NCBI RefSeq assembly: GCF_963576615.1
Contig: NC_088714.1
Span: 310,001 to 374,000, forward strand
Source of the DNA: Watersipora subatra
Lineage: Eukaryota; Bryozoa; Gymnolaemata; Cheilostomatida; Watersiporidae
Direction: 5' to 3'
DNA length: 64,000 nucleotides
The notes under the pieces: model-generated
Database searches by the model: none
Seen by the model: the letters and a program-made list of their open reading frames with translations, nothing else
What the model was told of the DNA's origin: nothing
Part shown: positions 5,801-28,637 of the stretch, piece by piece
How positions within the stretch are numbered: the first letter of the stretch is position 1
How the letters are laid out: each line of letters opens with the position of its first letter
Position numbers and translations under genes: made by a program

Positions 5801-8800
5801 TGAGTCAGATGTGCCAGAGAAGCCTGACAGACCTGAAAAGGGTAAGAGAACTCTCCAAGCGTGAGATTAAAATATGCCATTATCTCTCATCTTTACACGG
5901 CATTGTATAACCTCATCGCTCATCCACTTGCCAGCAAAAGTGTTCCAGGAATGGTGCATACTTACCTACACAATCCTATTGCTAACCTCATGTTTTAACC
6001 ACCATTCTTGCTTGTTTTAGCCTTAGCTCTAGCATTGAGGAGGGTACGTGGTGTTTCAGGGATGGTTATTTTGCCCGGTATCAACTAACTAGAGTAATAT
6101 GCGTGTTTAGCTGGATACCCAGAGGCTTTAGCTAAAAGAACGTTAGATACTTCTGAACTGCTAGTTTACCTCTTGGAAGTAGAAGAATATTAAATGGTTT
6201 TTTATCTTCAAGCTTGACTAACACCTTCTAAATAGCAGCGATTAACAGAGTACACCCTGTCCACACCATAAACATTAACATAGTTGTGAAGGCAACAGGG
6301 TGTAAGAGTCAGGGTTAGGTAAATGTTACCAGGTTTTAGTGATGTTCCTATCTGCTAAGACAATTTATACTAGGCAAACTCTTAGCCTTAGTTCAAATTA
6401 TTTGTATCTAATAAAAGAAGGAGCTGCTTTTAGCATGCAGACGACAACTACGAATATTAAGCACGGTTGAAGGCGCACCGAATATGCTCATGAATTATTA
6501 AGAAGGCAGCGAAGATCGGACGAAATGTGCGTCAGATCCAAAAAAGCGGTAGAGCTGTAAACATGGCAGAGTACAATCGGCCTAACGAGAAAAAATCAAA
6601 GTTATACTCTGGCAGGCGTTCTTCTGGAGTAATCGTTGAGACAGCAACTGCCAATCTGCTCAGCACAGCTGCCAAGAAGCAGAAACCAGCATCAGTGGCA
6701 GCGAGGACGTACAATGTTCACAGAAAAGAGTTTCCAGGTGTTGGCTACCTGAGGCATGTTTCTGCGGAGAAAAGCACATGCGACAAGCACCCTTGGTGTG
6801 AACTTTCATTTAATAAGGCATGCAGGCTTTGTAAATCCACTGAGAAGTGTGAAAAGAAGCCACTGACCACAAAGAGCGAGGCCCTTTATTTAGGAGATGA
6901 AAAGGAGGTAAAGTGGAGAAAGGCAACTAATTGTTGCTATGAATCTGACAGAGAGTGTTTAGTGGAAGGTCAACTTCCAGAACTACCAACCATGTTGTCT
7001 GCACATTGGTCAACCAAGAAAGAAGTTAGCTTGAAGTTGATCTCTTCTGCTTCAATGGACTTTGGAGATGGTGAACTCAAAGCCAAGCAATGCAAAAGAC
7101 CAAAACATTTAAAGGATTTCCCTTTGTACCAGCCCCCTGAGAGCGATGTAGGGCTTACAGGGTCGAAGAACATGCAGACTGTTTCTTCCGCTGTCCATAA
7201 AGGCTCTCGAGTCTATGAGAAGAAAGTTCATGGCATTGGACACCTCAGATATGCCAAGACACCATATCCAGTAGAGAGTCAAGAGAACTTGTCAGATAAC
7301 AATAACCAAAAGTTCACCTTCTCTCAATAAATTGATTGTTTACGCTAGCGTTTTATTGCCATGTTCCAGCAGCTTGTTTGTAATCAAACATTTGCCTAGT
7401 TCTACATAACTAACCAATTTATGAATTCTTTTGCTGTGTTTTACTTTTAAGTAAAAATACATTAGCAATAACATCTCCCTAGGATATTATGATATTACCT
7501 TGACTAACCCGACTAGAACCTCGATAGTACTGAGTTGGGGAAATATTAGACAAGTACCGACTTTAGTCCTTTATAAGGTTAGATTCCAAAGCAAGAAAGA
7601 AAATGATAGACATTTGCGATAGGTGTCTGATGAGGCACATAATAAATCCAGCTTTATTGAAAACACGCTTATTAATGGTGAATGTGAAATGAACAACAGC
7701 TCTTCTGCTTGAGCAATAGATCAAGAGCTCAGCGTGTGCAGAATTGTGATTCAACTTACAATGTAATAGGGCAGAAATGTTCGAAAGGTTGTTAACGCAC
7801 TTTATGACTGTTATGCTTCAGTCACGATGGCGTCAGAGGAGGCCTTCCATAGGTTAGTCACTTTTTCTATAAGCTTCTGAGTTGTAATTCACATAAATAA
7901 TTAGCAAAGAAATTGTGTCTTCAATTGTTTTACCTGCGCTGTACCTTTACCTGCGCCATCTTACACCTTAAAACCAAGTCTCTTAGCGGACTGTAAACTT
8001 TACTAGCACCATTTTAGATCGATATCTTTTTATTGTAGATGGATTTCCACCACGGCCTCCACGTGGTGTTGCAGGCATTCTTCACAGATTCTCTATGAAG
8101 CACTTTTCCTCTGTCTATGCAAAAAAGCCACCTACTGTCATACCAGATGAACCAGAGGAAGAGATCTATCTGTGAGTCATAATCATCTACACAGTACTTC
8201 TAATGCAGCTCGCTACAGAGCCTTTGCCCTACAGTAGATTAGTACTTGTCACAGAGAATCAAATGGTTCAGAGGCCATCACAGAGGGATGGTTAGGGGTC
8301 GGTTCAGAGAATGTGGTGGTCAGAGGTTATTACAGGAAAGCAAGAAGGAAAGCATGAGAATTACGTAAACATAACCATCATGTGGGTAGCTAACAATGTA
8401 ACCAAACAGGAAGCAGTTTATAGATAATATTTCTGTAATATGAAAAAAGGCTAGACATTTTTATAATGCTAAAAGGTTGAAGTGCTTTAAAACTTCAAGT
8501 TCAGCTTCAGTTTCTATTATATGTGAATGTAAACTAGCCACTCATATCTTGCTAATTCAATGTACTTTGTATCACTGTTCATCTTGTATTGAGCAAATTC
8601 TCTGGTTTACAGAGATGGTGATGAGCTCTGGGATCAGTTCCAGTCAATTCCTGATGATGATGGCGATGAGAGAACTGGTGAATACTGCTTTGAAGTTATG
8701 ACAAAAGTTCTCAAAATATTCATGTACTTTATTTTCTTCCTGATCATCATAGGAGGGATACTTGTATGCAAAGCATGTCTCATCATGTTGTGTCACCAGT

Positions 8801-11800
8801 ACCAGAAGGCAATGGTAAGTATCCATCTCTTATCTCTATTCACAAAAATTCACTTGCAAATAATGCAAGTCATATCGAGCTAGTACTGAGTTTACATACC
8901 GGGATAGTGTAGAGACACCTGGGTGTCCCTACACTATTGGTGAAGAGCCACGCTGGGACGACAAGTATGTTTCTATAAGGAGCTATAGTAGAGCGATGGT
9001 TGTGTCATGCCTCATATCACCGTTGTATCTTTAACCAATACGCATGCACAATTGCGACGTATAGGTTAAAGATACAACCATTGCTAAGGCTGTTTCCATG
9101 GTACAAACATGGCGCATCACATGGGTGTTTTTCTTCCAAACAGAGACACTGAATCACAACAGACTGAAACTGATATGGCTATTTGCATGATAGCATTGCA
9201 GTGCCATATGGGGGTGTGTCACTATGCAATCACTGTATAGAAACTTGGTATAGGTTTGCTTTTGATAACCAGATTCCACAGATTTTCTGAATGCACCTTT
9301 AGAGGTATCTTTAGTAGGTGGAATTGTAAATTAGGCTGAATGTCGCTCATGGAGGAAGTCTCTAAGTCATCCGTGTTTACGCTCTAGAAGTGCTTATGAT
9401 TTATTGTCTCCCACCCACCGGTTTAGAAGTTGACTCAGTGTAGCAGTTGGTGCTAGCCGTACAACGTACAACGGATGTAATAGCAGTAAATAGATTTTAT
9501 GAAGCGAGTTTATTAATTGCACAAGGTCTTACTCACAGCTGCGACGTCATAACTCGCCGGTTTGGTCACAATAAAACTCACTCAACCATACGCCAAGCGC
9601 AGCTTGCTATCGATGTTGAGCAACTACCTCACTTCATGACCTGGTTGATTTATCACCTGACAAAGAATGTTTTTTGCAAGAACTCTGATTGCCTCAGATT
9701 CTTGGAACGCTTGTTCACTAATGTTCCACACCATGTTCCACACCATGTTCCACACATGTTCACACTTGTTCAATAATGTTCCACACCATGATCCACACCA
9801 TGTTTGACACCATGTTCCACACATGTTCACACTATGTTCACACTATGTTCACTAATGTTGAGTTTTGGTTTCTGACAAAATAAGAAAGGAAAACATCGCG
9901 AGTAGCTACAGCTATAGTTTGAAAACTCATAGATAAAAATAGTGTCTAAGTGTTGATGTCTATTACCTAGGATATGGGCTCACCCCAGCTGATGTCCATG
10001 TGGATGTACCTCTGCCTATGGGCTGCCTCCATTCCTTATATCATCACATTTCTCCAAACCGGAGTGAAGATCCTATTTGGTTCGCATCCTTGGCCTGCAG
10101 TTGGCACTCTGATATGGGTATGTATTGGGATATTGGGTCAACTAGTTATCTACTTAATATGGGTATGGAATGGGATGTTGGGGCAACTAGTTATGTACTT
10201 AATATGGGTATGTATTGGGATGTTGGGTCAACTAGTTATGTACTTGTTATCATAGTATCGAGGCAGAAGTAGAGTTATTTAGATAGACTTTTGGGCAATG
10301 AAATACAACTACTGTAGAGGTGTTCCGGAAAACATTGTTTCCTAGAACATTATGTTATAGTATGTACTAATATGTATGTAATTTATATCTGTTAGCATCA
10401 TTTTGACCTGTTCATCTGCCATCTTTGCTAGGATCAATGTCATTCAAGTGATAACTCATTTCAGACAACTCTCATGGAGTCTATCCATACACTCGGCATT
10501 TGTCTGATGATAGTGAGAGTCTTACCAGAACTAGATCTCATCCGGTGTCTTCTTATTATGTGTGGGGTGGGCCTGGTTCCCTCCCTTATCAACCTTATAT
10601 TCGGCCTTCGACCCAGACATAACACTGGCAAGAAGATAGGAATCATAATCCTGGACTTGATGGCAGTTCTCTTTCAGACTAGTGTGCTTGTGGTTGTCTT
10701 GATCCTTGACTACAATTCTACCAAAGGTTTGTGCAGATATTCTTCTATTTAATACATTTACAAGTAAGTTTGACACCTCGGCTTTGACCGCACTTTCAGC
10801 GTGGGTACATCTTTTCTTCTCCTTTTATTGTTAGTAACTAGAATGGTTGATTCAGAGTTCCTGTGCAGTTCTTGTGCAGTCTGCTACTTTTAAGAAATGA
10901 AATCTAACAGGAAATGCTATTGCAAACATCAACTGTCTTCATACGCTATCTATTTTTTCTTGCTAGCTATAACCATTACTATAGTGGAAAATTATACACT
11001 ATTTGGTTGCTTCAAGTTTTTGAAAACCTTCGTGAGTTTTGTGGCACCTATCAAAATCCTCCTCATGCTATGGGTTGTAAAAGGGTTATCTGCTGCTCAG
11101 GTGAACTCATAGTGACAACAGCAAACCTCAAATGGGAAGCGGCTGTCTCCGTCGTCTGCATAGGCTTTTCTTGGAGAGAGAACTTTCTCAACTCTGACCT
11201 AACTTGTGGAAGGATGACTTTTAGTGTAAACAAATTCAAGAGACGAGCACTTGCTGCCCAGTCCAAAATCTATTTCTTCATCTCTATTGTTAAGGTGAGC
11301 AGGCAAACCTTTCATTGTGAACATCATTGAGTATTTATCACCTTTAGCAAGGGTGTTCTTAATAAAAGACTTTGCTAAGTAAACCTAGAAACCATAGCAG
11401 CTTGTTTTGAGTACTGGTGTTGTACTCCTTTGACACCCTTCCAGATTTTTATTATTTCTTAAAGGCTAATGCTAGCAGTATCCAAATGAATTCTGTAGTA
11501 TGGCTGTATAAACCTGGAATTTAGGTCATTGGTTGACTGATTATGCACAACCTGTCACTGCTGGCTAATAAATATGCAATCGATCAGCAACACCCACCCT
11601 CTCCCTATTATATGCTCCTGTATAATACAGGAGCATATTCAAATATTGCTTACCTGCACATGAACTAATCACTGTACGTCACTGTACATGAACTAATCAC
11701 TGTAAGTCACTGTACATATACTAATCACTGTAAGTCGCTGTACATATACTAATCACTGTAATCACGGTAAGTCGCTGCACATCTACTAATCACTGTAAGT

Positions 11801-12740
11801 CAAAATGTTAGTAACAACCAGGGCTGCTCTGCTGAAGGATCATGTCTCTAGTGAATGATTATGTTTGCCCTTTTACATGCTCTCATTTGAATGATGAACT
11901 GATTGATAATGCTATGATATGCATTATGTATATGCTTATGATTTGCTATGATATGCATTATGTATATGCTTATGATATGCTATGATATGCATTATGTATA
12001 TGCTTATAACAGGCTGTGATATGCATTATGTATATGCTTATGATATGCTATGATATGCATTATGTATATGCTTATGATATGCTATGATATGCATTATGTA
12101 TATGCTTATGATATGCTATGATATACATAATGTATATGCTTATGATAGGCTATGATATGCATTACGTATATGCTTATGATATGCTATGATATGCATTATG
12201 TATATGCTTATAACAGGCTGTGATATGCATTATGTATATGCTTATGATATGCTATGATATGCATTATGTATATGCTTATGATATGCTATGATATGCATTA
12301 TGTATATGCTTATAACAGGCTATGATAGGCATTATGTATCTGCTTATGATATGCTATGATATGCATTATGTATATGCTTATGATATGCTATGATATGCAT
12401 TATGTATATGCTTATGATATGCTATGCTATGATATGCGTTATGTATATGCTTATAACAGGCTGTGATACCCATTATGTATATGCTTATGATATGCTATGA
12501 TATGTTTATAGTGTGGGCTCCTCTTTGGACTTACTTTTTGGCTCCAGCCAGGACTTCTTTCCTTCTCTCAAGCTTTCAACTTGACAGGTTCTGCTCCTGG
12601 AAGTGTAAGTAAAACATGAACATCTAGTCTTATTATTTTTTATTAGTAAGTTACCTATTACTAGCACCCTTCAGAAGGCCATAGAGTCTATTTATTCAGT
12701 AATGTCGCCACTACTACTACTATTACTGCTACTATTACTA

Positions 12741-12794
<54 letters not shown>

Positions 12795-15700
12795 TGATTA
12801 CTACTATGACTACTTCTATTGTTTCTACTATTACTATTGCTACTACTACTATTGCTGCTACTGTTACTATTCCTACTATTATTATTACTAGTACTACTAC
12901 TATGACTACTACTACTATGACTACGACTACCGCTTCTACTACTACTATTGCTACTACTACTATTGCTACTACTACTATTGCTACTACTACTCTTACTACT
13001 ACTACTCATACTACTACTGCTACTATTACTACTTCTACTATTATTACTACTACTATTGCTACTACTACTCTAACTACTACTACTATTACTGTTACTACTA
13101 TTACTACTACTATTACCATGACGACTAATACTACTAAATGTTTCACTAATACGAGTATTACTACTGCTATTACTACTACAACTATTACTATTACTACTCC
13201 TACTATAACTATTACAACTACTACATGTACTGGTACTACCACTAGTTCTACTACTGCTACTAATACTACTATTACTACTATGACTATTACTATTACTCCT
13301 ACTATAACTGCTACTACTACTATTTTTGCTACTACTACTAGTGTTACTACTACTAGTATTACTACTACGACTAGTACTACTACTACTACTATTATTACTG
13401 CTATCACTACTACGACTATTACTACTACTCCTGCTATAACTGCTACTACTACTGTTACTGCTACCACTACTAGTGCTGCTACTACTGCTACTACTACTAC
13501 TATTACATGCTCCTGTCATACTTGCTAAAGGAGTTGTCCACTCACTACTGCACGCCTGATTTCTCTTTGCAGAATATAACGATAGAGCCAAACTCTACTG
13601 AGCACTGCGTCAGCTACGCTACAACAAGCATCGATGCTGCCATTGACTATCTTCCTTTCATTCTTCTTGCCATTCTTCCCCTCATCGTCTTTTACATCTG
13701 TATTCAGGCAGCCCAGCTTAAGATGCAAGAGGTAAGACTTTTACTATATTATGGTGAGTGATTAGTTTAATTTTTTTGACTGGTCCAATAACAAATTGCG
13801 TCCTTAGATAAAGGTAGATTTTAATATATCATAGTAATAACAGCTCCACTGTGTTGTCAGCTATTGAAGAGTACTGAGAGATGAGATACTTTCTCTAACA
13901 CGGTAAGTACTGAAGTAATTTCAGATGGTTGTGCTTTAAAATTGATCAAAATTCAATAAAGTGCAGACAGTAGCAGCACATCATACGAGTAGCAGCACAT
14001 CATACGAGTAGCAGCACATCATACGAGTAACAGCACATCATACGAGTAACAGCACATCATACGAGTAACAGCACATCATACGAGTAACAGCACATCATAC
14101 GAGTAGCAGCACATCATACGAGTAACAGCACATCATACAAGTAGCCGGATTGATGAGAAAGAAAATAAAAAAGTCTTATTATAATTTTAGGGAACATTTG
14201 CCTTGGCCACGACCTTTGCTACTCCCATCGCTGTAGCAATTGCTATTGCCCTTGAGTTCAACCACCTCACAGACTCAAGGTTTTGCTACTTTATTTTCTA
14301 TGAAGCCGATTCATTTGGAGATAGCAAGTTTATTGTACATCTGGTTGTTGGGATAGCCATCTGGTGGTCTAGCCAGATGTGGCTTTGTCGACACATCTGG
14401 TATCCTAAAAACCTGCGTCTCGAAAGAGTTCAAGGGTAAGTACGATGATGGTTCCAAGGTTTACTCTCACTTACATGCTGAAGAATGCATTCATTCTGTA
14501 AGTTGTTGCGGTAGATGAGAGACTGGTGCATGCATGTATTCTATAGGTTATTTGTACAGCCAATGTATGACAGCGTACTTCTTGAGCAGTCTATGTTATA
14601 CAACCGGCGCAAAGATGAGTTCAACCTGAGAGATCGCTTAGCGATTATAGATTCAGAAGAAGAAAGAAATATCCTTCCTGATGAAGGTAAGGCGGAATGT
14701 GAGGCGGTAGAAATAGCAGGATGTAAAATGAGATGGTGATGGTAGGTAATGGTAGGGGTGCAGTGAAAGGTGGTGGTGATGGTAGGTAATGGTAGGGGTA
14801 TAGTGGAAGGTGGTGGTGATGGTAGGTAATGGTAGGGGTATAGTGAAAGGTGGTGGGGATGGTAGGTAATGGTAGGGGTGCAGTGAAAGGTGGTGGTGAT
14901 GGTAGGTAATGGTAGGGGTATAGTGGAAGGTGGTGGGGATGGTAGGTAATGGTAGGGGTATAGTGGAAGGTGGTGGGGATGGTAGGTAATGGTAGGGGTA
15001 TAGTGGAAGGTGGTGGAGATGGTAGGTAATGGTAGGGGTATAGTGAAAGGTGGTGGTGATGGTAGGTAATGGTAGGGGTATAGTGAAAGGTGGTGGTGAT
15101 GGTAGGTAATGGTAGGGGTATAGTGGAAGGTGGTGGGGAAGAAGGGACATAAGTTGACAATAACTCAAAAAGTGAAGATAGTAGGGATGAGAAGAGGAAG
15201 GGGGAGGTAAAAGTGGAGTGAAATAAAGTGGATAAAATAGGGATGGAGTGACAAAATTGGTAAGGGTAAAGGTGGAGTGAGAAAACGTGGTTAAAATAGG
15301 GGTGGAGTGAAGAAAATTGGTACGGGTAGAGGGGGAGTGAGCGAATGTGGTGACAGTAGAGCTGAAGTGGTAATAAAGCAAGCAGAGATGACTTGAATAG
15401 TAGAAACAGAAATAGTTGAGTTTAATAAACAGGTGATGGCAAGTGATGGCAGGTGTTAGCAGGTGTTGAACTAGAAAAACAGCTAGTAATGAGAAATTGT
15501 GCGAACAGGATATATTTAGAGGTTCAGATATAAGAAACACGCTGTACGCCTCTTCTAATTAGGTATTCTCTATGAGACAGCTAAAAAGAGTTTACAATGA
15601 TGTAAGACAACTTGAGAGGACTTGGGAGGACTTGGGAACACTTGAGAGGACTTGAAATAATGTTATACGACTTGAAAGAGTTCAAAATGTTTTTAAAGAT

Positions 15701-18700
15701 TTGAAATGACTTGACAGAGCTTAGAATGCTTTTGGAGAACTTGGACGAACTTGATAAGGCTAAACAACAATTGAGATGACTTGAAAAAACTTGTGTATTA
15801 TCCCAGCCTGGTTATTATTATAACCAGCCCTTCTGTATTATTATAATCGAAACTACTAACATGATCTCAGTTTTAGATAGTCATTAACTTTCCTTCTCTT
15901 TTGTAATTGTTGATAGCATAATAGTGCTTTTCACTTAACGACAGCAAGTGGCTAAATATTATCTAAACATGCACAACAATGAGATAACAACTCTCAAAGG
16001 TTAAAAATGATATGTGTGCAACTATTAATTGCAGTGGTCAAAGACAGCACAACTCCGATGGTCTACATTTGCGCCACCATGTGGCACGAGAATCTCAATG
16101 AGATGTTACAAATGCTCAAGTCAATATTCAGGTAAGAAGAAAGTTTAAACTGTTAGTTTTTTGTTAATCATATTACTCGTGTTTTTACTCTAAGGCTAGT
16201 TATGATAAACTAATTCAAGTCTGTAATTGAATACTTCCTCGCCTCTGTGAGACCACGTCATTATTGTAGCCGTTAATATGAGTTTCAGGTTGCAGTCTGT
16301 GCCCCTCATTAAACCGATACAATAAGATAATTTTGTAGGCTGGATGAAGACCAGGCAGCTAGAAGACATGTAGGGGAGCTGTTAGAGGCCACTCATGGAC
16401 AAAAGCTCAAAGATCCAGATTATTATGAATTTGAAGCACACATCATGTTTGACGATGCTTTCACATTCAACGATAATGATGACGTCACCATCAACTCTTT
16501 CGTCATTCAACTTGTTGAAACGATCAACAAGTAAGTCAGTCACGCCTGCAATTGACGATTCAGTTAAGCTTTGACCCCCAGGGTTGATACTCTGAAAGAA
16601 ACACCCACCTGGCTAGGCCCAGACTTGGATATTGTACCCCCCCCCCCCAATCACCTGGTTGATCAATTTGAAATACACCCCGTAAACACTAGGAAATCCC
16701 TAGAGGGCGCCCAGGTTCCACGCCCCGCTAAACATTCAATATGATTCAAAAACTATAAAAATAAACTCCACTAGGCCTATAGCATATGTATCTCCTATGT
16801 ATCTAGAAGAACGCCTAATCAGCTCAAACAATGAAAAAAATTCTTCAGCAAAATAGAAAGGATGGGCCCTTTCACTGGCTTGGCTGTGGAAACTCCCCCC
16901 CCCCTAAGTAGCAAATTCACTGACAGTGCCCCATGGTCTGAAAACCCCTCCTAAAACGTGAATTTGGGCCGAACCTAATAGGCCTTTTGAGAGGAGTATC
17001 AACCCTGGGCTTTGACTAGGCCATACCTCGTATGTAGACATAAATTTAGAAAACACTTTGGGCAAATCTTCGATTTTAGGTACAATTAAATTTATTTAAA
17101 ATGGCGTACGTGTTCTGCTCAAATTGCAGACATGGTAAAGCTTACTAGTTTTGTCCTCATCTTCAGGTGTTCAATGGTAAGTTTCACCACCAGAAGGTTA
17201 CTTACTAGTGTAGATATATTGGTCCAAGACTCATATTCACCATTAGTTACTAGTAGTTTGAATAATCCTATTTCACCTATGTCTCTCTGCAGCTCAGCCA
17301 GTTCTATATACAACCGAGCAGTTGAGCTAGAGCCACCCGTAAAAATACCCACACCATACGGTGGTAGACTGGAATGGACCATGCCAGGGGACAACAAGAT
17401 CATAGCACATCTCAAGGATAAGAACAAAATCAGGCACAGGAAGCGCTGGTCTCAGGTGGGTTTATGCTGTAATCTGAGCACTGAGGCTCTCAAACACTGT
17501 CTAGCTTTTGTAAAATGTCAAATGTTATATTTAAAGTTTCACACTCTCTCCTTGCATGAACTGTGTGCTGAACCAATGTATGAGGGAGCGTACAACTACC
17601 GCAAAGTTGAACTATTTGTAAGGTGGAGGGCAACTGCAAAAACCTTGGTCTAATTTGTAAGGAATGGGTCAGCTGCAATAAACAAGGCTTATGAGTAAAC
17701 AACCGTGCACCAAGTGTGTGATTACAAAACACATAAAAGTGCAAAGCTATAAAATACTTGCAAAAAAATGCAGCCATGGCACTCTCGTAAAGAAAATAAA
17801 ACTACCAACATTTTGCAATCAAAATAGAGTGCAGAACTTGTGGGCAGCAAATAAACTACCTTCTTGCAATCTTTCGCTTCAGATTATGTACATGTACTAC
17901 CTACTTACTCTCTATATCTTCAGATTATGTACATGTTCTACCTACTTACTCTCTATATCTTCAGATTATGTACATGTACTACCTACTTACTTTCTATATC
18001 TTCAGATTATGTACATGTACTACCTACTTACTCTCTATATCTTCAGATTATGTACATGTACTACCTACTTACTCTCTATATCTTCAGATTATGTACATGT
18101 ACTACTTACTTACTCTCTATATCTTCAGATTATGTACATGTACTACCTACTTACTTTCTATATCTTCAGATTATGTACATGTACTACTTACTTACTCTCT
18201 ATATCTTCAGATTATGTACATGTACTACCTACTTACTCTCTATATCTTCAGATTATGTACATGTTCTACCTACTTACTCTCTATATCTTCAGATTATGTA
18301 CATGTACTACCTACTTACTTTCTATATCTTCAGATTATGTACATGTACTACCTACTTACTTTCTATATCTTCAGATTATGTACATGTACTACCTACTTAC
18401 TTTCTATATCTTCAGATTATGTACATGTACTACCTACTTACTCTCTATATCTTCAGATTATGTACATGTACTACCAACTTACTCTCTATATCTTCAGATT
18501 ATGTACATGTACTACCTTCTCGGATACAAGTTAGTCGGCAAGCAGTGCGACTTCAATGGCACCATCAGCTCCCGCGACAGTCACCTCACTTCTGACACAG
18601 CCAAGACTAAAAGTAAGTTGATTTGGTCAACGTTAGGCGTTGCAGCCTGTTTTGAGTACTAACCAGTCAGCAGAGTTTCATTTCCACAATAATAGCAGCA

Positions 18701-20581
18701 GAACAGGCTGAATGTTCAAGTTCATTTAATGAAAAACAATTGTGTTGGGCATTTACTGTACCTCATGTATGTTGATGCAAATGTGAGCACACTATAGAGA
18801 TGTCTCATTGGAACACACCAAAGAGATGTCACAATGAAACATACCAAAGAGGTGTCACACATGGAACACACCATAGAGATGTCACAATGACAGCATTGAC
18901 AATGTTGACAGTGTTACCTACGCTAGCAGCCCTGTCTGTTAGCAGTGTTACATACACTAGCTGTACTCGCTATTGACAGCGTTACCTGCACTAACACGGC
19001 TGCCTGTTGACAGTGTTACCTACAATCAGCAGCGCTAACTGTTGACAGCGTTACCTGCACTAACACTGCTGCCTGATTGATTTTAATAAGTTTTCAATAA
19101 CAGACTCTTCCATACAAGACTCATGTTGGCTCAGAGCCTTCTCTATAAACTAGTGAACTCTACCGAGACTTATCCCGTTGCGCCACCTATCACATGCTGG
19201 TTATTGACTTACTGTTGTGTCTGGCTATCTGAGTATGTGAAGTAGACTCATACTACTAGCCCTTCCAACACAAACAGAGTAAGGCACAAATAGAGCCCTT
19301 CTTAACACGCACTATTCAGCTGCCTAAGGCTAACTGCATGCCGGTATAACTTAGTCTAGTAATATCGTTGCAGATCTCAAGAAACGCGCCCGTGCTGAAC
19401 ACTTTGCCAAAGCCAAAGTCTTTGATGATCTACCTGAGAAAACGATTCTTAAAGCGGAGAATACATTTTGTATGGCTCTTGATGGAGATGTAGATTTTAA
19501 ACCTAATGCTGTACAACTATTGATAGATAGATTGAGGAGAAATAAGAAAGTTGGGGTGGTTTGTGGACGCATTCATCCTATCGGTTCAGGTATGCTACAG
19601 GAACTCTGCCAAGGATGCCTAGCATACGACAAAAAACATCCTTTGCATTGCTGATGCAGAATATAATAAATATACTTCAGATATTATTCGATACAGTTGA
19701 GTATGCAAAACTCTAGAAAATTTCTCACCTGTTACAGGGCCCATGGTCTGGTACCAGAGATTTGAATATGCTATCTCTCATTGGCTGCAGAAGGCTGCAG
19801 AGCATGTCTTGGGCTGTGTACTCTGCGCACCTGGGGCGTTCTCTCTGTTTAGAGGATCAGCGCTTATGGATGACAACATTATGAACACGTACTCTAAGCT
19901 GGTTGGTAGCATTCTGCAGATATTTCTGTATAGCACTTTCAAGGCAGCAGGTGCAGCTTGTTATAGCCTTAATCGACAATGGCAGCATTTGAATAAACTG
20001 TATTTACAAAGCAAAGCATCTTTGAATGTATTTTGGGTGTTTGCTAGTAAAGAGAGTTTGAACTCAAACACAGCCATCTGATGTTATAAATGTGTTGGAA
20101 TATGGCTAGTAACAAATAATACTTCAATTGACTTATTATATCATTCAAATTGCTAAACTCTTCGTTTCTGTCTGACCAGTTTAAAGAGAAGCAATAACTA
20201 ACAACTGAAAACTCAACACTTTTATGAGTCTTATAACAAACACAATAGCTAAAAACTAAAAGTGCGCTGAGAAATAATCTTTGAGTCATCGTAGAGCAGT
20301 TTTGAAAGTTGTAAAAGTGAAATTTATTGGACCTTTTACAGGCGACCGAAGCGACGCACTTTGTACAATACGACCAGGGTGAGGACCGATGGCTGTGCAC
20401 TTTACTTCTTCAGCAGGTATATTATAAGCATGTGAACTAGTTGCAGGCAAATAGGCTTACTCTACATGGTACTTGCTGTAGTAGAGGTAGCAGTTGTAGT
20501 AGTAGTATTAGTAGTACCAGTAATAGTACATGTAGTAGTAGCAGTAGCAGTAGTAATAGTAGTAGTAGTAATAATAGTAGC

Positions 20582-20627
<46 letters not shown>

Positions 20628-23600
20628 ATAGTAATAGTAGCAATAGTAGCAATAGTAGCAATAGTAGTAATAGTAGAAGTGGCCAGAAGTAATAGTAGTA
20701 GTAGTAACAGTAATAGCAGTAATAGTAGTAGTGGCAGTAATAGTAGTAGTAGTAGTAGTATTAGTAGTAGTAGTAGTAGTAATAGTAGTAGTAATAGTAG
20801 CAATAGTACTAGCCATGCTAGTAGTAATACTACTGGTAATAGTAGTTGCATTAGCTGTCGCAGTACAGCGGTAATAACAGTGCTAAGGTATTAATCTGTA
20901 AGACCTCTATTGCAGGGCTATAGAGTAGAATACGTAGCTGCTGCCGATGCCTTGACCTATGCACCTGAAAGCTTCCATGAGTTCTTCAACCAGCGAAGAC
21001 GCTGGGGTCCTTCTACTATGGCTAATGTCCTTGACCTCCTCTTCTCGTGGAGGAGGACCGTTAAAATGAATGACAACATCTCAAGGATCTACATGCTTTA
21101 TCAGGGGCTCATCTTTGCCTCCTCCATCCTCGGTCCAGCAACAATTGTTCTCATGTTGTCTGGGGCCTTTCGCAATGTGAGTTCTTAATGCATGGCGAGA
21201 GACTTTCACATTTTTGCTGTAACCAAAACACTAATAAAAGTACTGCTGCTGTTTAAGTATGCTGACACACTCTTATTATCTTATTCGCTACTTCATATTG
21301 TGGAAGACAACAGCAAAATTAGTTGCTAATGCTGCGCTTTGCTCTTGCAGTTGTTTGACCTATCAACTGAATGGGCGTACGTATTTGGAATATTACCACC
21401 TCTCCTCTACCTCATGCTCTGCTTCATGGTCAAGGCCGACACACAGATTTATGTGGCGAGTATAGCAACTGGCGTCTACGCTATCATCATGGTCGCAGTT
21501 ATCATTGATACAATTGTGGAGATTGCATCGAATAGCTTACTCAGCCCTACGGGCATCTTCCTAATCCGTAAGTTATAGCACTTGTGACAAGCATTTGTGG
21601 GAAGTATGAGGTGACAGCAAAGGGCTGACACCGAGGACTTGTGGGAAGTATGAGGTGACAGCAAAGGGCTGACACCGAGGGCATCAAAGTTTAAACTTGA
21701 GAAGTCTTTACTAACCATGATATAGAAACAAATGCATTTAGGTTTGAGTACTAGCATAACTGTAACCAAAACTCCCTAAACATCTGGCTGTATATTGGGT
21801 ATGTTTATCTATATTACCTATTATTACTATATTAAAGTTGAATGTCTTTATATCGCTACCAGTGGCCTTTTTGGGAATTCAGCCCCAACCTGTTGTTTGC
21901 GAATGAAGCGTCTAGGCCGATGTCGCTTTCAGCCATGTATTAGCTGCTCTCGCAATGCGTATCAGTACAAACCAGCCTATCAGATGTATGTACGTAGCAC
22001 TGTCATTAAGTTCTCGAACAACCAGTTAGCATGAGCACTCATCTGTTTTGTAGTGGTTGGAGGTATTATGGTTATAGCCGGATGTTTACATCCTCAAGAA
22101 TTCTGGGATTTGCCTTCTGGTCTTTTATACTTTCTTTCTATCCCGTCTGGCTATCTTCTGCTCACGATCTTTATGTTGACCAACATGCACAATGTCTCTT
22201 GGGGTAAGTACATGATAATCAGAAAGGTATAGCTGTGAATTCATCGCAGCATTATGCGTGTGGGACAGTGTTCCTTATGGTCTATCCGCCATCCATGCAT
22301 GCAGGCCATCATTTTTATCCTGCCTCTTATTGTACAATAAGACGCAGGATAAAAACGTTAAGCCCGCGATTTATCTCACTGTTAATCAGATAGCCTGCAG
22401 CACGTCTGTAGATTTTTACCATACTTCCTTCGCATCACAATCCATAAACGTGTTCATTGAGGGAAATTGTCCTTAAAGCAATCAAAGGTGCATTCTTGAG
22501 TTTTGAGTCACATGAGGGTTTAAAAGGCACTCATATGTCTCAACAACCAGGCAGTTCTGACCAACTATTGTCGGTGAGCTGGCAGAGTGCACAGAGCGTA
22601 TTGGTGTGGAGTTTGAAGAAAATTTGGGCCCAAAATGTTGAAAATGTGTTGCATTGATACAGACTAACAGACATAATGGCAAAGTGTGAGTTATTAAAAG
22701 AGATCTTATATTTTGTCACGTATCCTGCTCCATATCTTGTTAAAAATAGTAAAAAGCGCAAGCATTGCTACAAACCAAAAATAAAATAATTTTAGTATGC
22801 TAATCTATTGAAGGATTTCATTAGATAGGGATACTAATATAATAATATATAATAAATATTCTCAATTTTCAACCAATTTATAAACCTGAGTCGCCATCAT
22901 ACTGACCTCTCTCTGACCTCTCAGGTACTCGGGAAGTTGCTAAACCAAAGCCGAAGAAAAAACCGGAAGACGAAGAAGCGCCTGCCGGCACAGTCATCGT
23001 CCAAAAGCCGAAAAAGTCTGACAGTTTTCTTACTAATCTAATCGACCGGCAGACTGAGGAAGACTCACTCTGCGGTAAAATGGCCGTATTTTTCCAAAAG
23101 GTGATGAATTGTCTTTACTAACGACATATATGTAGAAGGTACTGATTTTCATTATCACTTTCACGAGCTGAAAATTTATGATACATTTAAATTTCATACA
23201 TATTCAAACCTGTGAAATTGTTACAACATACTGTGAAAGTTATAATAAGAGAAGACAACTTTAATTTGTATTTATACGAAAACATTCATGATTTGCATTT
23301 GAGCAAATAAAGCACAATTTAGTACTTTTAAACATGTAATTAAACAATGATAAGCCAAAGATTGTATTTTCCCTAAAAGCACAAACTGAATTATATTGTT
23401 GAGTACACTTCAATGGCTCCTCTCTCTACTAAGACAAACATTGAGCGCAAGTTCTGTTTCAATGGTGATAAATTTCCAGATAGCAGATGTCACAGTACTT
23501 TGCTGTAGCAGATGTCAAAACTCCTTTGCAATAGCATATGTCACAATACCACAATATCTATGATATTATTTAGTCTTTATACTACAGAGATCTAATAAAA

Positions 23601-26600
23601 TCTTTTATAAAAGTTTGACTCGTATGACAGGTGAAACTGTCACAGCCTGCAGTTTTACGGAGTCATGCGATCATAAAGGAATTGTTCATTAACAATAAAA
23701 CTGAGCTATGGACCTCAGGCTGCTTCAGTGTATCAATACATATCTCTGTTTCATAATATCTTTGGTAAATCACAGTGCTGCGGAAAGGCCAATGATGTCG
23801 CTATATATGACATGGTGAAAAAGATGAATGATAAATTGGAAGAAATGGAGAAAGTGGCTGCAGCTGATATCTATGACAACCAGGCCTTATACGCAGCTCC
23901 TCCATCAGATATCTATGGGAGGAAATCTTCGCAAACCTATGGTGGCATCTATGGCAGCGTTTCAAATCGGTGGGTGCACTTATCGAGTAGTTTATAAAAG
24001 GTGTAGTAGATAACAACAAGCGTGTTGCAGCAGATGTATCTGGTCCTGTTGCAGTAGGCGCATGTAACACTATTACGTTGTGTTGCAGCAGATGTATCTG
24101 GTCCTGTTGCAGTAGGCGCATGTAACACTATTACGTTGATCCACCTGCACAAAGTTAGCTTTTAAAGTTTGATTCATACTTGTTTAACTTCCATCTGCTT
24201 TATTTTATTTTTCGTTACTTTCTAAAAGTAAAGCAATCATTCGCGATAGAAATGCACTGAACAATTGAACATCACTTACCCAGAATTCCTGGTGTGACCC
24301 CCGAGCTTCCTGAAGATGAAGAAGCCATTGACCAGTATTACCAGATGGTTCACCGCGATGACATGATCAACCCTTACTGGCTTGAAGAAGAATGTCTCCG
24401 AGGATGTGAGGTAACATGTTAAATATTTTCTGCTCGAAGACATAACTTGGTTCATAATTTTGGAGTTGCATTTTTTGGTGATTAGATTTATATGCACACA
24501 TCTATTATTATCTGCTGTAAATACCATAGATTGAATTTTACTAACTATATTATCACTAATAATTGCAGATTCAACTTCTTGATCAAGAAGAAGTTACCTT
24601 CTGGAGAAAGTTCATCAAAAAGTACCTGCAACCAATTGATAAAGACGTTGAAAAAGAAAAAAAGATAGCAGATGACCTAAAGGTATGTGAATATTATATT
24701 TATAAGGGAGGGGGGCACTACTAGCCCTACGCTTAAGCTCCTACGAAGGTCTTAACAAAACTTTCAAGGTTTCCACTGTGACCCATTAGCTATAAAGAGG
24801 ATCACATGAGTTTAGCCTAAGTTCTATACATGCATTGTTATCAACTATCAGTTGAGCTTAGCCTAGGCCCCTCACAACTACATCGCTTTGGCAAAACACT
24901 TGGCCGACCTACTTTAAATTTGTTTGACATATTTTCATGAATCTAATTTTGACAACAACCATTTTACAGATATTGGCTTTGTTTTGTATTGGGAGAGGGA
25001 TGGGGGTGCTAAAGTAGCGAATCATTTGATAGTCTCATCTATAGTTATTGTAACATTCTGCGCATAAAATCCCTCTGAAGGTATCTGAATACTTAAGATC
25101 ATCTGAAAGGGTAGTTATGGTTGCTAATTAGATGTTTATGTATGTATGCTTATTTTTTGTTAACAGGGAATGAGGAACAATGTTTGTCTTGGATTTTTCA
25201 TACTAAATGCCCTATGGATTGCCATCATGTTTAGAATCGCTCTTGCTGAAGATGATCTCAAACCAATATATTTCAAGTACAGCGTTAATGGAAACGAGCT
25301 TGAAGTTGAGCCCCTTGGTATGTGTTACTATTACACTTGTACATCATTGGCATCTGGCGTGTTTAACGAGCAGCATATCTGCATCTCAGTGGGTGTAGTT
25401 ACCAAGAGAGAAAGTGCGAGAGAGCGGGAGAGAGTGGGGGAGAGAGAGAGTAGGGGGAGAGAGAGTGGGGTGAGAGAGAGAAGAGGTAGTGAGACTAGGG
25501 TGAGAAAAAGGGAAAGAGAGAAAAGAAAATGAGGGAGAGAGAAAGAGGTCGCAAGAGCAGAGGTAGAGGGAAGGAGAGAAAGACGAGAAGAAGAAAAGGG
25601 GGAAAAAGGAGGAGGGTGAAAAAGAGAGAAAGCGAAAGAGCGGAAGAGCGAAGTAAAAAGAAGGAGAGAGAGAGGAGAGAAAGAAAGTGAGGAAGAAAGG
25701 AGAAGCAGGGGGAGAGAGGCGAGAGAGGAAGAGGGAGAAGCATAGGAAGAGAAAAAAGAGAGGGAATTGTGATAACATGTATTTTATTGCCAATTCCTTT
25801 TTTTGAAAAAACCAGTCAGCTTGCAAGTTATCATTGATCGGAATGTTTATCTATATAGATAAACCTTGCTAGCATTACAGCTAGCAAGGTTTATCTATAT
25901 GAATAAACCTTGCTAGCATTACAGCTAGCAAGCAACAACCATGCCTCACAGCAGCAACCATAATACCCCATGTATTTGTACAGGTTTGATTTTCCTATCG
26001 ATCTTTGGCGTGACCTTGATCCTGCAGTTCTTTGGTATGTTGTGGCATCGCTGGGGAACCCTTCGACACATCATGGCAACTACTATTATTGACTTTATTC
26101 CTGGGGTTAATACGCTATCTCTTGCCAAGAAAGATGAGAGTGTTATCATATCGGAGGCAAGAAAGACAGCTAAAGAAATCGCGAGACTAGAGCCAGATGG
26201 GCGTATAGAGGAGATCTATCCTCAAGGTTAGTGCCCCTATAAGATAGCTATTCAAGCACGCTTGCAATGCACTGCAAGAGCTCATGACGCATGATAAATT
26301 TTTATTATCAACACCTGACTAGCATTTAGATGAGCCATCCATCTCCAACTAGGCATATGCATTGCAACAGGTTGACTTGCAACAAATTTCACATTACAGT
26401 TATTTGGTATCAAAAGGTTCACCATGTTTTACTCTGCTGTGTTGTAAGTGCAAAATATGTGGAAATGTGATTACAAGCTCTTAAAAGCTAAAAAACGAAC
26501 AGTTTATCGCAGCCATCATGAAAACGCCGTAGATTGGAATCCCTTTCCAAAACGACTCAAATGGGATGTAGATGAACACAATGGCTTCTGTTTACACTTT

Positions 26601-28637
26601 CATGCAACCTCATTCGTCGAAATACTTTCACATACATACTTCCACGCATTCAATAAAACCATGTTATAAAACCAAACTAACTGGTAATCGCAGCCATCCT
26701 GAAAACGTCGTAGTTTGGAATCTCTTTATTTCGATGACGTACTCAAACATTGTAGTTATTGTTTTGACACGCGATGCTATCACGTGAAATTAAAGACCAA
26801 CAAAAGGCTCCGTATAAAATGTCTCGTAGCACTAGTTTGTGACAAACACTTCGAGTTCTACCGGAAAGTCTGTATCAAACATAAATGCTCGCTACTTTAC
26901 AGTTTCACTTCAGTTTGGTCGTCATCATCTAGTCGTAATTTGATCATGCGACCCATACTTCCTGCCAAATAGCGCGAACAATTTCTGCAGCATTTTTCGA
27001 CTATCACAGGTGACCAACAGGCTCATTATGTTTATCAGAAGATGATATGCACTCTTTCGAGCTAAGGTTAATAAATTAAACGAATTTTTACAGTAGGTTT
27101 TGAGATATCAGTGCTCAAAGTAACAGCATTACAATGATGATGAAATAGATGCGTAAGAACAATAGACATGGTTTTATTGAATGCGTGGAAATATGTTTGT
27201 GAAAGTATTTTGACGAATGAGGTTGCATGAAAGTGTAAACAGAAGCCATTGTGTTTATCTAGATCCCATTTGAGTAGTTTTGGAAAGGGATTCCAATCCA
27301 CAGCGTTTTCATGATGGCTTCGATAAACTTTTTGTTTTTGAGCTTTTAAGAGCTTGTAATCACATTTCCACATATTTTGCACCTACAACACAACAGAGTA
27401 AAACATGGTGGATCTTTTGATACCAAATAACTGTAATGTGAATTTTGTTGTAAGTCAACATTTAAACATAAAGTAGCTGAGAACTTGGCAGAAGACCAGA
27501 TGTCCACAAGCATTAAAACTAAGATTTGTTGCTAATTGAACATGTTTTTGCTGCCACTAACAATACATGGTAGATATGATTGTAATTTGAAAAACTATTG
27601 CAAGCTATAAGGCATACATTATCAATATCTACGTGCGAGTCCACGTGTACATTTATGTTATCATGGTCATTTACGTTATCACGTTCATTTATGTTATCAC
27701 GTTCACATGTTTATTTATGTTATGACGGCAAAGTGGAAATCACTAAAAGTACATTAACTTTAAAATTTGTGCTCAAACTTTTCTAAACTTTTTACACATG
27801 ATAACATAACTCCAATTTTTTAGGACCATGGGTATTAATGAGGTCATATTGAGCCATTCCTTTGCACTGTCTGCTGACTCAGTCGATTCTAAAAATGTGT
27901 TCAGTTGTAATTTAAAAATTCCGAGTATATTATTAAAACCATTTTGGAGGGCAGAGCATAAATTGATCCCGCATCATTAATGTGTATCACACCATCCTGT
28001 AGGCCCACTATCACCAAACAGTGAGTCTGGAGATAGTGATGGCAACTTCCGAAGAAAGGGTTTAGCCAGAATCTCAATCAGAGACAGATTTAAGAAGAAT
28101 CTTGCCAAGGTCATTACCGAAGCCAACTCTGATGAGCCAGAACCCATTCCGAGAGAAGAGCCAGGCCTGCCACTTGCACCACCACCTTTGCCCAGAAGAG
28201 GAAAATTTACTAAAATCAACAGGTATCCATATCAAATATCGAACTTTTCATGCCAGCTATATTAATCAATAATATTATTCAATAATGTTAATCAATAATG
28301 TTAATTATTGATTAACGTAAAATCCATTATGTAAATCAATTATATTAACCAATTATATCAACCGATTATATTAAACAATATTTTGCACTGTCTCTTATTA
28401 TGAGTCCTTCTGCAATGCTCACTAAAATCCTTTTCAAACTTCACTAATTTGTCTTCTCTGCAATCTGCTCTATCTGTTCATAAATCCACTGTTTTTTCTT
28501 TTTGTGTATCTGCCACTCGAAATACAACGGCTATCTTACATTTCAGAGCACACACTGTTCGACAAGTGAAACGACTCCAAAGTTTAAAGAAGCATTCAGC
28601 TGCAGCAGAAAACAATGCAATGGATAGTGGAGTCTAG
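2854..28637 (+). CDS. Chitin synthase, 29 coding exons, 1642 aa
   Basis: Family 2 glycosyltransferase that polymerises UDP-GlcNAc into chitin and extrudes it through the plasma membrane. Exons: 2854-3074, 5708-5841, 8039-8171, 8613-8814, 9971-10117, 10432-10726, 11101-11294, 12512-12604, 13573-13731, 14191-14435, 14547-14686, 16035-16131, 16339-16530, 17293-17455, 18498-18612, 19374-19589, 19738-19901, 20342-20416, 20916-21176, 21351-21567, 22054-22203, 22925-23100, 23776-23969, 24284-24410, 24569-24682, 25167-25317, 25984-26226, 28003-28222, 28547-28637. The lengths sum to 4929 nt (1643 codons with stop) and every junction is GT-AG with matching phase. Residues 1-196 are polar; the first membrane helix is about 197-220, followed by the N-terminal membrane block. 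The catalytic core (about 650-1080) has TPMVYICATMWHE, YEFEAHIMFDDAF, ALDGDVDF (about 878-885), EDRW (984-987) and QRRRW (1021-1025). C-terminal helices are followed by SWGTRE (1203-1208), a short coiled coil (about 1270-1297), two more helices and a basic tail. There is no myosin motor domain, unlike some mollusc chitin synthases. Exons 1-2 and the start codon are the least certain: the first ATG in the open frame was chosen, and an upstream exon is possible. Confidence 0.93.
3640..3957. repeat. 43-bp minisatellite, about 7 copies (intron 1)
   Basis: Unit starts CCTTCCACGGCCTGCGGGCT and continues with GTGTATATTACCCCCATCCTAGT. It is GC-richer than its surroundings and very homogeneous. The 78-codon open frame across it is a product of the repeat. 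Confidence 0.95.
4441..5105. repeat. 9-bp (ACTCTACCA)n-type array, about 73 copies (intron 1)
   Basis: Variable 9-bp unit (AACTCTACC, GACTCTACC, AACTCCACT and others). Because the unit is a multiple of three and lacks stops, long open frames exist on both strands (about 230-250 codons of Thr/Leu/Pro, Ser/Thr/Asn, Gly/Arg/Val or Leu/Val/Glu). A roughly 240-bp sub-block appears duplicated (about 4560-4760 and 4840-5000). Confidence 0.95.
5270..5492. repeat. 41-43-bp minisatellite, 5 copies (intron 1)
   Basis: Unit contains TATTAATCACTGTACAGAGG and ACACAAGGCCGAGGCAGTCA. Copies alternate between AGTCAGTATTAAT and AGTCATATTAAT joints, giving an alternating two-length pattern. Confidence 0.93.
6563..7330 (+). 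CDS. Nested intronless gene, unknown 255-aa basic protein
   Basis: Single open frame inside intron 2 of the chitin synthase gene, same strand. The start was taken at the ATG in AAACATGG (a good Kozak context); the frame is open a little further upstream without another ATG. I do not recognise the family. The protein is rich in Lys, Ser and Glu. It has two related motifs: residues 49-66, RTYNVHRKEFPGVGYLRH, and residues 216-230, RVYEKKVHGIGHLRY, sharing R-(T/V)-Y ... G-(V/I)-G-(Y/H)-L-R. Between them, residues 73-96 hold five cysteines (C73, C79, C87, C90, C96), a possible metal site. There is no signal peptide or membrane helix. The stop TAA lies inside AATAAA (7326-7331), a candidate poly(A) signal, which would give a very short 3' UTR. 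The balanced, non-repetitive composition argues for a real gene; being intronless in an intron-rich region suggests a retrocopy or a lineage-specific gene. Confidence 0.6.
   Translation: MAEYNRPNEKKSKLYSGRRSSGVIVETATANLLSTAAKKQKPASVAARTYNVHRKEFPGVGYLRHVSAEKSTCDKHPWCELSFNKACRLCKSTEKCEKKPLTTKSEALYLGDEKEVKWRKATNCCYESDRECLVEGQLPELPTMLSAHWSTKKEVSLKLISSASMDFGDGELKAKQCKRPKHLKDFPLYQPPESDVGLTGSKNMQTVSSAVHKGSRVYEKKVHGIGHLRYAKTPYPVESQENLSDNNNQKFTFSQ
8904..8937. repeat. Short palindrome (intron 4)
   Basis: Near-perfect inverted repeat with arms ATAGTGTAGAGACACC and GGTGTCCCTACACTAT, nearly no loop, just after exon 4. It could fold as a hairpin in the transcript; no known element is recognised. Confidence 0.8.
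9022..9078. repeat. Inverted repeat, 15-bp arms (intron 4)
   Basis: Arms GTTGTATCTTTAACC (9022-9036) and GGTTAAAGATACAAC (9064-9078) are exact complements around a 27-bp loop. This may be the remnant of a very small foldback element. Confidence 0.75.
9720..9845. repeat. Degenerate ATGTTCCACACC repeat (intron 4)
   Basis: Roughly 12-bp units (TGTTCCACACCA, TGTTCACACTA) repeated about 10 times. The small open frames on both strands here are repeat artefacts. Confidence 0.85.
10108..10255 (+). promoter_or_regulatory. Triplicated 5' splice site of exon 5, 45-bp period
   Basis: Exon 5 ends ...ATATGG at 10117, followed by donor GTATGT. The next 45 bp end again in AATATGG followed by GTATGG (10163), and the following 45 bp end in AATATGG followed by GTATGT (10208). 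The frame stays open from exon 5 through all three units, so each alternative donor would add exactly 15 hydrophobic residues (first insert VCIGILGQLVIYLIW). Exon 6 begins in phase 0, so all three isoforms would be in frame. Use of donors 2 and 3 is inferred, not shown. Confidence 0.8.
11610..11638. repeat. Perfect short palindrome (intron 7)
   Basis: Arms ATATGCTCCTGTA (11610-11622) and TACAGGAGCATAT (11626-11638) around a 3-bp loop. Confidence 0.85.
11670..11800. repeat. About 26-bp tandem repeat, 5 copies (intron 7)
   Basis: Degenerate copies of ACTAATCACTGTAAGTCGCTGTACAT. Each contains GTAAGT, a consensus-like 5' splice motif, though it lies deep in the intron. Confidence 0.85.
11880..12505. 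repeat. 34-bp minisatellite, about 18 copies, abutting exon 8 acceptor
   Basis: Unit GCTATGATATGCATTATG plus TATATGCTTATGATAT, with a TATAACAGGCTGTG variant. The last partial unit (GCTATGATATG) runs into the exon 8 acceptor (TTTATAG, ending at 12511). The normal polypyrimidine tract is therefore replaced by AT-rich repeat sequence. Confidence 0.95.
12705..13505 (+). repeat. (ACT)n trinucleotide tract, about 800 bp (intron 8)
   Basis: Long imperfect ACT/TAC trinucleotide microsatellite, pure around 12745-12795 and interrupted elsewhere by ATT, GCT and ACG triplets. Long Ser, Thr or Val open frames on both strands are artefacts. The transcript strand reads (ACU)n, the exact complement of the (AGU)n tract in intron 18. 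Confidence 0.97.
13965..14142. repeat. 19-bp tandem repeat, 9 copies (intron 9)
   Basis: Unit AGTAGCAGCACATCATACG, with an AGTAACAGC variant. It ends about 50 bp before the exon 10 acceptor. Confidence 0.95.
14730..15140. repeat. 40-bp minisatellite, about 10 copies (intron 11)
   Basis: Unit GATGGTAGGTAATGGTAGGG plus GTATAGTGAAAGGTGGTGGT, beginning about 45 bp after the exon 11 donor (GTAAGG, 14687). Every unit contains AGGTAATG, a donor-like motif. A G-rich, purine-biased, more diverged tail extends to about 15370. Minus-strand Pro/Tyr/His frames of 171 and 295 codons are repeat shadows. Confidence 0.95.
16576..17009. mobile_element. 434-bp MITE with 7-bp target duplication (intron 13)
   Basis: Terminal inverted repeats CCCAGGGTTGATACTC (left) and GAGTATCAACCCTGGG (right) bound the element. 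It is flanked by a perfect direct repeat CTTTGAC at 16569-16575 and 17010-17016, read as the target-site duplication. Ends containing CAGGG with a 7-8-bp duplication resemble hAT-type elements. The interior is C-rich (poly-C runs near 16640 and 16900) and has no coding capacity, so it is non-autonomous. Confidence 0.85.
17881..18497 (+). repeat. 41-bp array made of the exon 15 splice acceptor, 15 extra copies
   Basis: Unit AGATTATGTACATGTACTAC plus CTACTTACTCTCTATATCTTC, period exactly 41 bp. The true exon 15 acceptor (TTCAG, ending 18497) and exon start ATTATGTACATGTACTACCT are the 16th copy, so every unit carries a pyrimidine-rich stretch, a CAG acceptor and the exon's first 20 or so bases. 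The array has no stop in any forward frame. Acceptors 3, 6, 9, 12 and 15 units upstream (18375, 18252, 18129, 18006, 17883) are in frame with exon 15. Variants are limited to single substitutions (TGTTCTAC, TTACTTTC, TACTTACTTAC). Confidence 0.95.
18790..19075. repeat. Two degenerate short arrays (intron 15)
   Basis: About 18790-18890 holds three copies of a GGAACACACCA...GAGATGTCACA unit. About 18900-19075 holds four to five copies of a CTGTTGACAGCGTTACCTGCACTAACAC-like unit. Confidence 0.8.
20470..20860 (+). repeat. (AGT)n trinucleotide tract, about 390 bp (intron 18)
   Basis: AGT/TAG/GTA microsatellite with AAT and GCA interruptions; the purest part is about 20580-20630. The transcript strand reads (AGU)n and is complementary to the (ACU)n of intron 8. 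The Leu, Ser or Val homopolymer frames here are not genes. Confidence 0.97.
21595..21682. repeat. 44-bp direct duplication (intron 20)
   Basis: Two exact or near-exact copies of a unit starting TTGTGGGAAGTATGAGGTGA, beginning about 27 bp after the exon 20 donor. Confidence 0.9.
22312..22355. repeat. 44-bp palindrome (intron 21)
   Basis: Arms TTTTTATCCTGCCTCTTATT and AATAAGACGCAGGATAAAAA meet at GTAC, with one mismatched pair. Strong hairpin potential in RNA or DNA. Confidence 0.85.
24023..24136. repeat. 58-bp direct duplication (intron 23)
   Basis: Two copies of a unit starting TGTTGCAGCAGATGTATCTG and ending CACTATTACGT. Each has TTGCAG acceptor-like motifs just downstream of exon 23. Confidence 0.9.
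25404..25766 (+). repeat. About 360-bp polypurine tract (intron 26)
   Basis: Almost uninterrupted A/G sequence on the + strand, largely GAGA and GGGAGAGA motifs with few pyrimidines. Such tracts can adopt triplex (H-DNA) structures. Minus-strand frames rich in Leu, Ser, Phe and Pro are shadows. Confidence 0.9.
25845..25932. repeat. Tandem hairpin repeat (intron 26)
   Basis: Two direct copies of TTTATCTATAT...AAACCTTGCTAGCATTACAGCTAGCAAGG; each holds the inverted pair CTTGCTAGC / GCTAGCAAG. It lies about 50 bp before the exon 27 acceptor. Confidence 0.85.
26369..27461. mobile_element. Foldback MITE, TTAA-family copy A (intron 27)
   Basis: Long inverted arms (about 300 bp: left about 26369-26670, right about 27150-27461) start AGGTTGACTTGCAAC and contain GCAAAATATGTGGAAATGTG. 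The same family occurs at 35697-36591 and 42580-43488. The middle is inverted relative to the other copies. TTAA follows the right end but the left flank (GCAAC) lacks it, so this copy is older or rearranged. Matching small open frames on the two arms (73 aa on +, 104 aa on -) come from the inverted arms and are not genes. Confidence 0.85.

Follow-up and report, generated by a model that had tools for sequence, protein, structure and literature searches.

The 3′ end of intron 14 in a chitin synthase gene of the bryozoan Watersipora subatra carries a tandem array that presents sixteen acceptors in front of exon 15. The array is very probably a minisatellite of the 'mirage' type, that is, a tandem array which repeats an intron-exon boundary, with an origin and a tolerance as proposed below. 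The units are uniform among themselves, with deviations in the outer flank and in the last unit, and splicing in the annotated mRNA leads to the exon-adjacent acceptor. Mirage minisatellites are known from amphioxus, where they occur in the genes Adh3, BflGb6 and BflGb9 (PMC3087553).

The window, meaning the whole 64-kb stretch of DNA that was analysed, corresponds to positions 310001-374000 of contig 7 (chromosome 7) in the 783.7-Mb assembly. A rough protein read of the window gave 2024 matches, of which 120 were listed, and the best was P0001, a chitin synthase chs-2-like protein of W. subatra, which maps onto the window in 29 exact segments separated by 28 introns, all of them GT-AG, and places a gene of 29 coding exons and 1586 aa on the plus strand at 2989..28634. 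By the same exact mapping, exon 14 (17294..17455, +) ends in KIRHRKRWSQ with the donor CAG^GTGGGT at 17456 (the caret marks the junction), and exon 15 as annotated (18498..18612, +) comprises 115 nt, begins with IMYMYYLLGYKLVGKQC and has the donor AAA^GTAAGT at 18613. The P0001 junctions delimit intron 14 between them (17456..18497, +; phase 0, 1042 bp), whose position is the same in three paralogues. A search of the 64-kb window against Rfam at gathering score gave zero matches.

In the array, TRF reports a period of 41, 15.6 copies, 97% matches and a score of 1212 at 17877-18517. The window contains the motif CTTCAG^ATTATG sixteen times, each copy exactly 41 bp from the next, and its exon-side positions on the plus strand are 17883, 17924, 17965, 18006, 18047, 18088, 18129 and 18170 for acceptors 1-8 and 18211, 18252, 18293, 18334, 18375, 18416, 18457 and 18498 for acceptors 9-16. 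The sixteen tandem acceptors claimed in the initial annotation are thus confirmed, and its description of the unit likewise holds: each copy has 21 pyrimidine-rich nucleotides that end in CAG, followed by the first 20 nt of exon 15, and the genuine exon start, 18498 of the annotated exon, is the final copy. Fifteen complete units lie at 17883..18497 (+), as given by TRF, the motif count and the comparison of units, and their variants read ABTAADTDABTTTAQ in order. The units are 98% alike, with 10 of 615 letters departing from the consensus at four positions and none of these letters inside CTTCAG. The block ABT appears at both unit 1 and unit 9, a pattern as block duplication would leave. Deviation is found at the edges, as the last unit (18457..18497, +) is the sole carrier of T20A, which creates CCAAC with its A at −21 of 18498, and the flank of the outermost acceptor (17855..17882, +), 28 nt in array register that start with ACTACCTTCT, differs from the unit at 7 of 28 letters.

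Two further features concern the array as RNA and on the opposite strand. The palindrome GTACATGTAC is present in most units (17883-18517), and its RNA copies pair between units with the acceptors looped out; in RNA folding the palindromes GUACAUGUAC pair between units with a z of −3.56 against 20 shuffles, a value not decisive for a tandem array. Every one of the 15 units (17883-18497) contains ACTTAC, which reads GTAAGT, a donor-like word, on the minus strand.

The array is unlikely to be an assembly artefact, since the 13.30 Gb of HiFi data in 2.20 million reads amount to approximately 6 kb per read (PMC12902671), which far exceeds the 641-bp array. The tzWatSuba1.1 assembly was built from HiFi reads at about 39-fold coverage with a QV of 63, and its alternate haplotype is named as GCA_963576605.1 (PMC12902671). 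In the assembly searched the array was found at one place only; the other genomic matches were to arrays on chromosomes 1 and 3, with 68% identity and different units. Another 41-bp array, situated on contig 3 outside the chitin synthase matches (L003:1319-1866), is devoid of CTTCAG and contains, in 7 copies, a 16-nt stretch common to both arrays, ATTATGTACATGTACT, while its best rotation agrees at 23 of 41 positions, a value reached by 23 of 5000 shuffles.

Next, the annotated protein fits splicing to 18498 only, as P0001 reads RWSQ^IMYMYYLLGYKLVG with no insert. The strength of the acceptor was considered as the reason and rejected. In a position weight matrix built from the other 27 acceptors of the gene, with leave-one-out scores for the real sites, the 16 array acceptors score 6.38-6.60 (6.45 at 18498 and 6.38 at 17883), which places them 16th-17th of 27, all above the median of 6.14 for real sites, and no other AG of the intron scores higher than 3.56. 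The matrix is weak, since among 1288 decoy AGs the 95th percentile is 5.55 and the 99th 7.73, and the array acceptors fall between these; all 16 sites nevertheless score alike, so strength does not choose among them. Exon definition would favour 18498. The internal coding exons of the gene (n=27) all measure 75-262 nt, whereas the first acceptor would give an exon of 730 nt and the acceptors at least 4 units upstream give 279-730 nt. Exon 15 would then be defined jointly with the donor 115 nt downstream and the nearest acceptor would win, which may explain why 18498 is mainly used although the other 15 acceptors are equally strong. Against the favoured reading, a scanning model that starts at an upstream branch point would lead one to expect use of an upstream AG, and the annotation at the intron 14 junction may itself rest on homology.

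Candidate branch points do occur in the array, every unit having CTTAC at −17 and the last unit alone CCAAC at −21, the latter being a hint only as to the use of 18498. The branch-point consensus is yTnAy, and no match was found in the 45 nt before 17883. Little weight is placed on this evidence, because the consensus is a general one and is lax in this gene, where 21 of 28 introns have a match with the A at −15 to −45.

The array is evidently derived. A set of 43 exon matches led to three paralogues, which lie on contigs 7, 3 and 2, and all three paralogues examined carry the intron at the identical place and phase, RWSQ^(I/V)MYMYY; in the stretches retrieved, their introns of 621, 303 and 783 bp each have a single acceptor, and their exon starts match that of exon 15 at 19, 18 and 17 of 20 letters. 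When the array is collapsed, ACTACCTTCT remains twice, once in the intron and once in exon 15 (18511..18520, +), as a 10-bp direct repeat with a spacing of 41 bp. In mononucleotide shuffles, a direct repeat of at least 10 at any spacing appeared in 4 of 300, and at spacing 41 in 0 of 5000. The exonic copy is also present in one paralogue (L026), and the intronic copy is absent within 80 nt of the acceptor in all three. This direct repeat suggests, as the simplest reading of the sequence, that the array was born by slippage between the two copies. The 10-bp match could also stem from decay at the array edge instead of having seeded the array, which would look similar. On the slippage reading, slippage or unequal exchange between ACTACCTTCT at the end of intron 14 and its counterpart in exon 15 would have duplicated a 41-bp acceptor cassette, and later expansion from the functional end would have produced the 15 near-identical units. 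Use of an upstream acceptor would mostly yield early-stop mRNA or a broken enzyme, with a small leak at most, and the intronic array would be tolerated in a genome that abounds in tandem repeats.

The bryozoan array appears to fit the published description of the amphioxus mirage almost feature by feature. Both are minisatellite-like tandem duplications of an intron-exon boundary, and in BflGb6, as here, the duplicated part consists of the 3′ end of an intron and the 5′ part of an exon, exon 2 in that gene (PMC3087553). The authentic boundary lies at the array edge in both systems (PMC3087553), and here the other units are intronic in the annotated transcript. The units bear AG or GT splice signals, in many of the amphioxus units and in 16 of 16 acceptors here, and arrays of both the acceptor and the donor kind occur in amphioxus (PMC3087553) as in the bryozoan gene. 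Units at the edges escape homogenisation in amphioxus (PMC3087553), which in the single array studied here corresponds to the unique variant of unit 15 and the divergent flank. The differences lie in the host, a bryozoan, and the gene; in the number of acceptors, 16 compared to the 6 and 3 units of BflGb6; in the unit size, 41 bp versus 10-72 bp in Adh3 and 150-160 bp in BflGb6; and in the likeness of units, 98% versus 81-100% in BflGb6 (PMC3087553). Length variation and RT-PCR data accompany the amphioxus arrays (PMC3087553); the W. subatra array is described from the assembly and the annotation.

Two other systems share some of these properties. The 37-bp repeats in intron 7 of human F7 are variable in number and, as in the bryozoan, highly alike, each has a splice site, and in the normal condition the site touching the exon is the only one used (PMC6627357), as it is here by annotation. 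In F7, a human gene tested in cells, that site is the most upstream donor (PMC6627357), in contrast to the most downstream acceptor in the bryozoan. In the potato RdRp gene, a single duplication took in, as here, the 3′ side of an intron together with the adjoining 5′ side of the exon that follows; a new intron arose there (PMC4974935), whereas the bryozoan intron is old and none is annotated as new at the duplicated stretch.

The initial annotation further proposed that the upstream acceptors provide isoforms, with copy number changing isoform choice or dose between individuals. Its arithmetic is correct, as acceptors 3, 6, 9, 12 and 15 units upstream would insert 41, 82, 123, 164 and 205 residues in frame, and the remaining 10 of the 15 shift the frame and lead to a stop in exon 15, at a distance of 78 or 17 nt from the 3′ end of the exon. 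Nonsense-mediated decay of these products is expected, because 14 introns still lie downstream of the stops. The array is also open in all forward frames as claimed, no stop being found, and beyond it two of the three frames reach a stop within exon 15. Openness is however weak evidence of coding, as it was seen in 1393 of 20000 shuffled units and in 11258 of 20000 shuffles that left CTTCAG and the exon start intact.

The isoform claim itself found no support, given the annotated protein without an insert, the early stops and an insertion point that is conserved. The in-frame inserts would land between Q749 and M751, at RWSQ^(I/V)MY, where no insertion occurs in any of the 60 animal chitin synthases that were aligned, a set selected from the 120 listed proteins and including P0001 and the paralogue P0002; RWSQ is present in all 60, and exactly two residues separate Q749 from Y752 in every one of them. 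Judged from this alignment, an insert of 41-205 residues would very likely harm the enzyme. A variable loop of 16 to 79 residues starts eight residues past the insertion point in the aligned set, and the solved-structure matches start C-terminal of that point and leave it uncovered. P0001 forms a cluster of one member, its name has no isoform label, and the 205-aa-longer form (1791 aa), although inside the length range searched, is absent from the 120 proteins listed of 2024. It is therefore unlikely that upstream acceptors are used often enough for copy number to alter the productive share of mRNA between individuals, even though the 16 sites score alike, 5 of the 15 upstream acceptors are in frame and amphioxus mirages vary in length by haplotype, with 6 and 3 units in BflGb6 (PMC3087553); RT-PCR and Adh3 data from amphioxus suggest that regular splicing is not disturbed (PMC3087553), and a single isoform is annotated here.

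The array could also be a step towards a new intron, with a unit later exonised or the array turned into a second intron, a route that has been put forward for both mirages and tandem duplications. A published model (PMC3087553) and the potato case (PMC4974935) speak for such a course, which is nonetheless very improbable here given an old intron at the same position in all three paralogues and an annotation with zero products that contain a unit exon. Given the absence of insertions at this site and the annotated protein, coding use of the array was dismissed as a likely option, and that acceptor 17883 is used to give a 730-nt exon 15 with 205 additional residues is barely credible: the 15 x 41 = 615 nt form an open frame divisible by 3 and the site scores 6.38, but the protein and all 60 homologues lack the insertion, the exon would exceed the longest internal one of 262 nt, and the lax yTnAy is missing upstream.

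The favoured mirage-type reading needs no special cause for the position of the array. TRF arrays with a score of at least 100 cover 22.7% of the window, and 34,475 of 197,337 bases (17.5%) in 20 sampled 10-kb stretches at round coordinates, two of these stretches being entirely array and six having none. In one gene and one paralogue surveyed, arrays are not enriched at splice sites: 20 TRF rows, two of them overlapping, cross 2 of the 56 junctions of the gene, and random placement that allows no more than 25 bp of coding overlap gives a mean of 1.49 crossings and at least 2 in 45% of cases, whereas 9 TRF rows in P0002 cross 0 of 36 junctions, the nearest lying 10.5 bp away. Two crossings are thus the random expectation. 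The second boundary-spanning array, found by TRF and donor scoring, consists of three 45-bp copies over the exon 5 donor (10112..10245, +), with the donor at 10118 and copies at 10163 and 10208 that score 7.95, 5.86 and 7.95, respectively, against a median of 7.79; it is open, its three donors are in frame at 15 residues per step, and its reading is membrane-like. Other arrays end close to splice sites. In P0002 (L028-L031) arrays stop 10.5 and 13.5 bp short of junctions, and between a 34-bp array of 17.5 copies at 11904-12504, in which some units have TTATAACAG, and the exon 8 acceptor at 12512 there are 7 bp.

The array extends boundary-repeating minisatellites from amphioxus to a bryozoan, and no earlier bryozoan case was found in the open-licence literature. 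What is unusual about it is how many acceptors compete and how alike they are. The array provides a clean natural test of 3′ splice site choice: with sequence strength constant over 16 sites, position, exon definition and the branch point remain. It is also a warning for annotation, as a read reaching 20 nt or less into exon 15 fits 16 acceptors equally. Finally, in an improbable scenario, the near-identical acceptors would be in a sixteen-way contest, and the loss of chitin synthase pre-mRNA to early-stop transcripts would depend on the length of the array; if this were true, instability of the array within a clonal colony would make the zooids of one colony differ in their chitin synthase output.
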